From Lyngbya sp. HA4199-MV5 (lineage in GTDB: Bacteria > Cyanobacteriota > Cyanobacteriia > Leptolyngbyales > Leptolyngbyaceae): a DNA stretch of 64,000 nt. This document shows, piece by piece, positions 59,874 through 62,657 of the stretch (the stretch's first letter is position 1; each line of letters begins with the position of its first letter). Position numbers and translations under genes: made by a program. The DNA is taken from contig JAHHHL010000027.1 of assembly GCA_019359375.1 (NCBI GenBank), forward strand, positions 1 through 64,000, read 5' to 3'. The notes beneath the pieces are model-generated. The model was not told the DNA's origin. It saw only the letters and a list, made by a program, of their open reading frames with translations, and did no database searches.

Positions 59874-61313
59874 TCACCACATATTTCCATTTGGATCAGA
59901 CGATCGAGTGGGGGCTGACAATGGAGCAGGATTGGGCGTGAAAGGTGGCTGGTTCGTACCAATAGGACGTGATCCCGTGTCAGGCACTCCCTGTCCTTGA
60001 GGGTTTTGTGGGACAGCCGTAATCCGAGGCTGCACAGGGTTAAATTCGCCCGTTTGAGCGTTAAACTCGCCCGTCTGCCCGGTTGAAGCAACGGCACCGC
60101 AGTCAGTCAAATCGCGGAATTTAATCCAGCCGCGCAGAAAGTAGTAAAGGGCACTAGCGTATTCTTCAACTGCCTGCGAACCGAGAAACAACGCATCAAT
60201 GCTGGGCAAAAAGTCAGTCGCCTGAAGATTGTATTCAACCAGGTCGCGCTCTGGAGCCAGGTTGTTAAGCTTCGATCGTCGTGGCACTGTGTAGAAATCT
60301 GTGGGGCGTGCAATGGGGCAAAACCCAAAGACTTCTCGAAAGGTACGGTATGTCCGTTCTGTATTCATCGCCGTGTTGACGATGGTTAACTGGTTGCCGA
60401 AGCCAACGCGATTGTCAGCGAGGATTTTTTTGACGTTCTCAGCCGTTCTGCGAATGCTTGCGCCATCGGGATCGAGAAACCGCATGGCTTCGCAAGGAAC
60501 ATCCAACGATTGGTTGAGAAAGGTTTGAATATCTTTTGCCTCTGAAATATAGTCCTTGGTTTCGCCTTCTTTCTGCTTGCGATCGAGCCTCCGTGGGGCG
60601 CTGATCACAATTTGACTGTTGGGGTTTTGCCGATACAGTTGAGCCGCATACAGCACGCGATCGGCTTTATCGGTCAATTGAATGGGAAGCTGAGTGGGAG
60701 GCTGGGTCAGCACGCGGTATTGCTCTGCGGTCAGCGGTTCTTCACTATCAGGTGGGGGAGGTGTAGCAGGGCGAGCGGGTGCTGCGGTGGAAGCTGGTCT
60801 CAGCGGTGGGCAAGTGGTTCTGGGTCCCAGAAAGGGGCGTGTAGTGCCTTGCCCCAACAGCACAATGACAGGAGTATCGCCTGCGACTTGTGCTGCAACA
60901 GGGCGAATCATTTTAATGCCTTCCCATTCCAGCTCTTGAGCTAAAAAATAGGACACAACTGGCAGACAACAGGCTAGTAAGAGCACTAACCCCACGCGGA
61001 TGATGTTGCCAACAATCTTATTGACTTTGGCTCCAGTGAGCAAAATCAGCAGCAGGATGATGGCTAAACTCAGCGGTCTAAACAGTAACGAAATAATGTA
61101 CCAGAGCGTTCTGAAGATATCCGAATCGTCAAAAACGGTTGGTCCACTAAAGAAAGACACCGCCAGAATGAGTAGGATCAGCAGCAGCACCAGCAGTCCC
61201 AAAAACGCTCTTGGCAGCGCTTTGAGCAGCACAAACCAGGTGACTAGCCCAACAACAATCCACAGCAAGACTTGCGTGAGCAGCAGAAAAACATCTGTGA
61301 GCAGTAAAACCAT
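59874..61313 (-). CDS. YdcF/ElyC/SanA (DUF218) family membrane protein
   Basis: 479 residues. Four N-terminal membrane helices (about 1-125), a Pro-rich linker (PARPATPPPPDSEEP), then the DUF218 domain: VIVLLGQG, ADRVLYAAQLYRQNPNSQIVISAPRR, SEAKDIQTFL, RRTAENVKKIL and LTIVNTAMNTERTYRTFREV. The C-terminal ~80 residues are low in complexity. Members are tied to envelope and cell-wall integrity without a defined reaction. This one has a larger membrane part than ElyC. It lies upstream of the ABC exporter on the same strand. Confidence 0.85.
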   Translation of the reverse strand: MVLLLTDVFLLLTQVLLWIVVGLVTWFVLLKALPRAFLGLLVLLLILLILAVSFFSGPTVFDDSDIFRTLWYIISLLFRPLSLAIILLLILLTGAKVNKIVGNIIRVGLVLLLACCLPVVSYFLAQELEWEGIKMIRPVAAQVAGDTPVIVLLGQGTTRPFLGPRTTCPPLRPASTAAPARPATPPPPDSEEPLTAEQYRVLTQPPTQLPIQLTDKADRVLYAAQLYRQNPNSQIVISAPRRLDRKQKEGETKDYISEAKDIQTFLNQSLDVPCEAMRFLDPDGASIRRTAENVKKILADNRVGFGNQLTIVNTAMNTERTYRTFREVFGFCPIARPTDFYTVPRRSKLNNLAPERDLVEYNLQATDFLPSIDALFLGSQAVEEYASALYYFLRGWIKFRDLTDCGAVASTGQTGEFNAQTGEFNPVQPRITAVPQNPQGQGVPDTGSRPIGTNQPPFTPNPAPLSAPTRSSDPNGNMW

Positions 61314-61756
61314 GCTGAGCGTTCCTACCTGCTTGCGACAACGGAGTCTGCTTGATGACCATGCTGGTGCGATCGCATCTTGACCTCAGCCCCATACCTC
61401 TTTTACAGACACCATGATGCAGCCAAATCGAGAATTGGCAATAATTCCTTGGCAGGACAAGATTCTGCCAGCGTCTGGTGTGAGGTTTGATGCCTCATGA
61501 TAGGGTGGCTCCCCAACGCTCTAAAGGACTCAAACCCCTATGTGTATGATACACGACTGTAATACAAATGTTCGCTCAGACAACCGAGCGCAAGGGGTGC
61601 TGTTGCCGGGATAAAGCGAACCTTAAAACGATCGTGATAAGTCCTTAAATCATGAGTCCTGGCAGGAGCGATCGTTGCACAATAGTCTGGGTGCTTTATT
61701 CGCTATCAAAAGGCGTGCAAACCTGCCCTTAAAAGCATGTCTAGGAGGTTCTGTTT
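61314..61756. other. Intergenic region upstream of the small membrane ORF
   Basis: Holds the YdcF promoter region and, at the right end, a possible promoter for the 24-codon ORF (TTGCAC 61675-61680, TATTCG 61697-61702, 16-base spacing). Nothing else is seen. Confidence 0.4.
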
Positions 61757-61831
61757 GTGTCCTTGATTCTCGCGCTGATTGTCTTTGGCTTGCTCTTTTT
61801 CGTGATTGCTAAAGAGCTGGTTGGCAAGTAG
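61757..61831 (+). CDS. 24-residue single-helix membrane protein
   Basis: GTG start, 24 codons: (M)SLILALIVFGLLFFVIAKEL followed by VGK. AGGAGG (61743-61748) stands eight bases before the GTG, and a strong terminator follows 40 bases after the stop, so this is a well-formed minimal gene. One membrane helix with a basic end, as in the small subunits of PSII, cytochrome b6f and oxidases. The sequence does not match PetL, PetN, PetG, PsbT, PsbM or PsaM as I remember them, so the partner is unknown. Confidence 0.6.
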   Translation: MSLILALIVFGLLFFVIAKELVGK

Positions 61832-61870
61832 CTGTACCAAACGTCTACCTGCAAAAAGCTGACAAAACGC

Positions 61871-61895
61871 AAAGAGGGCGCATAGCGCCCTCTTC
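61871..61895. terminator. Bidirectional terminator
   Basis: AAGAGGGCGC and GCGCCCTCTT form a perfect stem around ATA, with T-rich sequence on both outer sides. It serves the small ORF (plus strand) and the convergent sugar transferase gene (minus strand). Confidence 0.75.
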
Positions 61896-61982: not shown

Positions 61983-62657
61983 TTAGAAAGCACCAACCTT
62001 CGCCAAGATGACATAGACGGTGCGAGCAATCAGAGCCAAATCGTAAAAGGGGTGCCACTGATCCTGGTAGCGGAGATCAAGCTTCACAATGTCCTCAAAG
62101 TCTTTGACGGTCGATCGACCATTGACCTGCCATTCTCCAGTCATACCGGGCTTGACGTTGAGCCGTTGCCAGTGGTGGCTATCGTAACGAGACACTTCAT
62201 CCGCAGTAGGTGGACGGGTTCCGACCAGGCTCATCTCTCCAATAAGCACGTTCCAAAATTGCGGAAATTCATCCAGACTGCTCCGGCGTAAAAATCGCCC
62301 GATCTTGGTTACGCGAGGATCATCCTGGTTTTTGAAAATGAGTCCGCTGGCTTCGTTTTTGACCTGCGCTTTCAGTGCATCCGCATTCTGCACCATCGAA
62401 CGAAACTTATAGATGCGAAACGGTCTACCTAGCAACCCATACCGCTCCTGTGCATAAAAGATGGGTCCCGGACTATCTAGCTTGATAGCAAGTGCCAGAG
62501 GGATGAAGAGAATCCCCAAAATGATGAGACCAATCAGACTACCCGCAATGTCTAAAAGGCGCTTAAAAATAGAATTGACCGATCGATGAGGAACCTGAAG
62601 CGTTGGAGGTGCCAGCAGCAAGGGATTCACCGTTGCAGTAGGGAAGGTGGATTGCAT
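61983..62657 (-). CDS. Undecaprenyl-phosphate sugar phosphotransferase (WcaJ/WbaP-like)
   Basis: 224 residues. One membrane segment (about 36-58), then the bacterial sugar transferase domain: SPGPIFYAQERYGLLGRPFRIYKFRSMV, KIGRFLRRSSLDEFPQFWNVLIGEMSLVGTRPP and VKPGMTGEWQVNGRS. This family starts exopolysaccharide or O-antigen units by moving a sugar phosphate to the lipid carrier. It is the short, monotopic form without the N-terminal helices of WcaJ. No other polysaccharide genes are adjacent. Confidence 0.92.
   Translation of the reverse strand: MQSTFPTATVNPLLLAPPTLQVPHRSVNSIFKRLLDIAGSLIGLIILGILFIPLALAIKLDSPGPIFYAQERYGLLGRPFRIYKFRSMVQNADALKAQVKNEASGLIFKNQDDPRVTKIGRFLRRSSLDEFPQFWNVLIGEMSLVGTRPPTADEVSRYDSHHWQRLNVKPGMTGEWQVNGRSTVKDFEDIVKLDLRYQDQWHPFYDLALIARTVYVILAKVGAF

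Follow-up and report, generated by a model that had tools for sequence, protein, structure and literature searches.

A conserved 24-codon gene for a predicted single-helix membrane peptide in cyanobacteria

CydX, a 37-residue subunit of cytochrome bd oxidase, consists of a single hydrophobic helix and plays an accessory role. Genes of 24 codons are of a size usually passed over by gene finders. Among cyanobacteria, a 2016 study (PMC5126843) names the 29-residue PetN as the shortest conserved protein to have been annotated. It describes Norf4 of Synechocystis as an unannotated 31-residue single-span protein that was found by comparison and transcript data, overlaps gap1 and shows extreme conservation in all five morphological subsections. 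A further point of reference is FraI, on which the septal nanopore array of Nostoc punctiforme depends according to another report (PMC11351039).

Here we describe a 24-codon frame, encoding the peptide MSLILALIVFGLLFFVIAKELVGK, in a 64,000-nucleotide stretch of DNA from Lyngbya sp. HA4199-MV5 (the whole stretch analysed, hereafter the window). With PetN, a subunit of cytochrome b6f, the product has in common the predicted character of a tiny single-helix membrane protein of cyanobacteria. No Pfam link connects the two, however, and the peptide family is shorter and limited to a few families. A PetN profile located petN of the genome on contig C93 (G000:C93, 67.2 bits), and the peptide locus was not among its three matches. 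Norf4 is likewise an unannotated small one-helix protein, but the present peptide diverges fast and occupies other loci, a separation drawn from the published description of Norf4. CydX offers a model for how a single hydrophobic helix could work as an accessory subunit, yet none of the loci read shows oxidase genes next to the peptide, and the profile searches gave no match. The likeness to FraI belongs to a neighbouring DUF218 protein and not to the peptide itself.

When 11 and 19 members of the family were scanned against Pfam, with HMMER filters that discard most weak matches, the best E values were a non-significant 0.06 and 0.08 and no tiny photosystem, b6f or oxidase subunit family appeared at E ≤ 10; NCBIfam scans under the same filters gave no match. 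Nothing significant was found among PDB chains; the best matches, to helices of YajC and a dopamine receptor (E 0.8 and 0.23), were taken as short hydrophobic coincidences. These results, together with the position of petN elsewhere in the genome, bear out the original prediction that the peptide is none of the known tiny photosystem, b6f or oxidase subunits. A search of an open-access library by title or abstract returned no description of the 24-residue peptide. Overall, it represents a new family within a known kind, the single-span microproteins, which are a broad kind and not a homologous family.

The gene unit and its coding signal

The sequence had been predicted to carry an AGGAGG, an eight-base spacer and a GTG-started frame of 24 codons, and direct reading confirms each of these elements at 61743-61831 (Table 1), with the spacer TTCTGTTT occupying 61749-61756. 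The window was scanned on both strands for an AGGAGG followed, after 4-12 nt, by ATG, GTG or TTG and 18-60 codons including a hydrophobic 15-residue stretch; this recovered the present unit and no other, and the same scan of 100 first-order Markov sequences of window length produced 0 matches. The frame is short and contains one strongly hydrophobic stretch, the best 15 residues having a mean hydropathy of 3.38. About 65 bases 5′ of the peptide start, a segment TTGCACAATAGTCTGGGT (61675-61692) changes little among the aligned genus members and may be promoter sequence.

Table 1. Features of the peptide locus, in window coordinates
Feature	Position	Strand	Basis
DUF218 (YdcF-like) protein, N-terminal membrane region weakly FraI-like	59874..61313	-	Pfam, NCBIfam
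Conserved non-coding block between divergent genes	61398..61447	.	Alignment of 5 genus members
Shine-Dalgarno AGGAGG	61743..61748	+	Read directly; AGGAG kept in 5/5 aligned genus members
Peptide gene, GTG start, TAG stop (61829-61831), MSLILALIVFGLLFFVIAKELVGK	61757..61831	+	Homologues, pN/pS, sole such unit in window
Hairpin with T-rich tail	61871..61895	-	Terminator scan and folding energies
Convergent downstream neighbour, bacterial sugar transferase (context only)	61983..62657	-	Pfam Bac_transf

Substitution patterns in the frame are those expected of a protein-coding gene. Pooled pN/pS was 0.28 for five members of the window's genus (10 pairs) and 0.14 for seven members of genus g6 (21 pairs); the pairs are non-independent and the ratios therefore descriptive, and rough because synonymous sites are near saturation. 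Variable columns at the three codon positions numbered 9/4/17 of 23 in the window's genus and 8/4/17 of 22 in g6, and the genus members read in shifted frames gave ratios of 2.0 and 3.3. In the alignment of the five genus members, identity was 0.69-0.76 across the frame and ribosome-binding site and fell to 0.24-0.49 after the stop. The upstream side was mixed, with most bins lower, the start of the DUF218 gene reaching up to 0.93 and the intergenic block up to 0.89. Sequence comparison thus provides good support for coding status and for purifying selection on the frame at the protein level, which is indirect evidence that the peptide is made.

Occurrence and loss across families

Within the window's genus, a protein search matched the peptide in five of the six other genomes (G001, G002, G004, G005 and G006, not G003), and a scan of named genomes returned six loci, two each in Stenomitos and Leptolyngbya sp. 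ES-bin-22 and one each in Tildeniella nuda and an Oscillatoriales MAG. Of the 42 genomes in the window's family (f1), 24 proved by profile search to hold orthologues; many of these carriers are rows of the search profiles, and their later scores follow by construction. One copy, MTLIVAIAFFAILLFWIFQDLQK in G028, was spotted by eye between a DUF218 gene and a galE-like gene and later added to profile A5. Start, length and hydrophobic core are conserved in these 24 genomes, and the substitutions are of coding type, in agreement with the original prediction of a real peptide gene for a single hydrophobic helix. Carriers mostly have one copy at a stable place. In the metagenome-assembled G005, two near-identical copies (L003 and L014, one at a contig end) are probably strain variants. 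At L008 of G013, an A run after codon 24 (about 1573-1590) shifts the stop and leaves the frame open for 49 residues, reflecting either a sequencing slip or a real change in length.

Diverged copies beside the DUF218 gene were sought in the 18 family genomes that earlier profiles had left unmatched, G028 among them. Once G028 was counted as a carrier, 18 genomes of the family had no match to profile A5. G003, of the window's own genus, retains only a degenerate remnant at the same place, MMLALIVFNSPFFAFANGIVS, with Ser-Pro inside the helix. Thirteen genomes read at the DUF218 locus had no such peptide (G014, G015, G016, G018, G019, G020, G022, G023, G027, G029, G031, G032 and G034); the gene divergent there was antiporter-like in seven, galE-like in three and of other kinds in three. 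Four genomes were left out of the absence count: G062, where the contig is cut, G058, whose match lacks the N-terminal part, and G017 and G059, whose matches to the DUF218 protein are weak. On a tree of 38 DUF218 proteins, the distribution of presence and absence needs at least five changes versus 12.7 in shuffles, in a count that scored G028 absent wrongly and G062 absent with no evidence for it. The original prediction had named a frame broken in relatives with preserved flanks as the finding that would speak against it. The 24 carriers and the purifying selection mostly point the other way, and the G003 remnant and the 13 further genomes lacking the peptide count against the gene.

A second family, f13, carries the peptide in the form MDLAIAAIVFGTVLVLFTRDVFG. 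Profile A3 matched 31 of its 57 genomes at E ≤ 0.1, some of them partially, and the pooled profile A5 gave near full-length matches in 28. Genus g92 of this family had full-length matches in 0 of 20 genomes and one partial match in a long frame. The peptide is dispensable, given these g92 genomes, the G003 remnant and the 13 peptide-less genomes of f1. Pooled pN/pS in f13 was 0.27, at a saturated pS of 0.77, with variable columns of 13/6/21 of 21. A third family, f43, contributed a single genome with the peptide, G377, where its neighbours are different again. In the reverse direction, profile A4, built from the f13 sequences and that of G377, recovered seven f1 peptides at E < 1e-3, each at a DUF218 locus, but missed 17 of the 24 f1 carriers, the window's own genome included. 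The seven recovered peptides make homology of the f1 and f13 forms likely, on the basis of 24 residues. Across the class, A5 matched 57 of 388 genomes at E ≤ 0.02, of which 53 were counted (24 f1, 28 f13 and 1 f43), with G155, G261, G309 and G324 left out as partial matches inside longer frames. By sequence comparison, the ribosome-binding site, start and length are thus conserved, with homologues in two cyanobacterial families and in one genome of a third. Six f13 genomes (G189, G349, G373, G370, G236 and G195) gave extra profile matches in frames of 48-83 residues, the best with E 8.3e-6 in G349; these frames possibly encode a related, longer small protein.

Genes and elements flanking the peptide

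A DUF218 gene lies divergent and adjacent to the peptide in all 24 f1 carriers, although a second G005 contig ends at the peptide and has no visible DUF218 gene. An ABC-transporter gene follows on the far side of the DUF218 gene in 16 of 21 loci. On the 3′ side, the sugar transferase of the window is also present in G001, G002, G005, G006 and G007, and a galE-like gene takes its position in several other genera; in 11 of 19 f1 genomes it runs in the same direction as the peptide gene and starts no more than about 300 bases away. The names galE, dnaN, rimM and antiporter were read from translations, and the neighbours scanned against families were the DUF218, sugar-transferase and ABC proteins and one Fur protein. 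In f13, a convergent gene of one cluster stands next to the peptide in 19 of the 20 loci read; a single representative of the cluster was scanned and belongs to the Fur family.

The DUF218 neighbour in the window scored 42.7 bits against Pfam DUF218, above the cut-off of 27.6. Its residues 8-127 gave 51.1 bits against the NCBIfam FraI model, below the cut-off of 225, and it differs from FraI further in carrying the additional DUF218 domain. The FraI link is a lead and not a finding. Many of the searched genomes encode proteins resembling this neighbour. Between the two divergent genes, the conserved block reaches a mean identity of 0.89 in the 25-base bin at -345, above that of the peptide gene itself, and could be a control region shared by both genes, or could serve the DUF218 gene as promoter or 5′ leader.

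The original prediction had closed the unit with a strong terminator. The hairpin is indeed strong, with folding energies of -19.9 kcal/mol read on the plus strand and -21.3 kcal/mol on the minus strand, but its assignment to the peptide gene held only in part, the terminator belonging mainly to the minus strand. A terminator scan (one site found versus 0.7 expected from shuffles) detected it on the minus strand only, the side of the T-rich tail, which best fits the end of the sugar-transferase gene. It is probably the terminator of that gene, and at most bidirectional. A similar hairpin lies 3′ of the peptide stop in G001, G002 and G006 and is absent in G005.

Probable nature of the peptide and competing explanations

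We consider it probable, if well short of certain, that this is a real, independent gene whose product, a membrane protein of about 22-28 residues with a single span, serves a larger membrane complex as an accessory helix. Membrane insertion is predicted from hydrophobicity, and for function we infer the following. A small or acidic second residue, a hydrophobic core of about 15 residues and a basic C-terminus suggest one span, inserted with the N-terminus probably outside and the C-terminus in the cytoplasm. By analogy with known tiny subunits, the helix would then pack beside a larger membrane protein or complex in an accessory or stabilising role. The pooled alignment shows no variation at A6 and next to none at F10, as would suit a helix that packs against a partner; a test for a conserved helix face, which would be expected of an accessory helix, was weak (p 0.46 in f1, 0.035 in f13 and 0.11 pooled).

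A more specific proposal, which we regard as improbable though worth stating, makes the peptide a dedicated partner of the divergent FraI-like DUF218 protein in the cell envelope or septum, under a shared control region. The invariable divergent adjacency in f1, stricter than that of the far-side ABC-transporter gene, and the strongly conserved block between the two genes argue for it, as does the need for FraI in septal nanopores of Nostoc punctiforme (PMC11351039). Nevertheless, the f13 peptide sits elsewhere, in 19 of 20 loci facing the Fur-family gene, the DUF218 protein is found without the peptide in many genomes, and the FraI match is far under its cut-off. Still less probable is that the frame acts as a leader peptide or upstream frame, translated in order to regulate a gene 3′ of it. 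Such a role is possible at those f1 loci where the galE-like gene follows (11 of 19), but a co-directional gene to be regulated is missing directly 3′ of the peptide in the window, where the large genes that come next lie on the minus strand. It is also missing in 19 of 20 f13 loci, where the next gene is convergent. Neighbours also differ between the families, which makes a leader role unlikely, and selection acts on the amino acids of the whole helix.

The size and hydrophobicity of the peptide resemble those of type I toxins, and it might be a small toxin-like member of a type I toxin-antitoxin pair. We hold this to be very unlikely, given that the gene is mostly single-copy at a stable place, that Rfam matches on both strands were all sub-threshold (best E 0.62), none of them near threshold, and that searches of plasmids, phages and viral contigs turned up no relatives. 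A mobile-element origin was rejected on the same absence of relatives: tblastn at E ≤ 10 found nothing for the window peptide among plasmids or for a related peptide among phages, searches with little power for a short hydrophobic query, and a pattern scan of viral contigs gave 12 stretches, none confirmed. The reading to which we give least credence, and scarcely any, is a chance open frame within a conserved non-coding region. Its extreme shortness, the G003 remnant and the family genomes lacking the peptide are what such a frame would predict. Against this stand the codon-position pattern, pN/pS and shifted-frame behaviour, the similar pN/pS and codon-position pattern in the second family, and the failure of any of 100 random sequences to yield such a unit.

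We thus favour an accessory role in some larger membrane complex. There is a slim chance that the family ranks among the smallest conserved membrane proteins in cyanobacteria and represents an overlooked cell-envelope or septal helix around FraI-like DUF218 proteins. The finding adds to the known set a conserved protein family shorter than PetN. If tiny accessory helices are commonly skipped, the membrane complexes of filamentous cyanobacteria may contain parts that nobody has sought.
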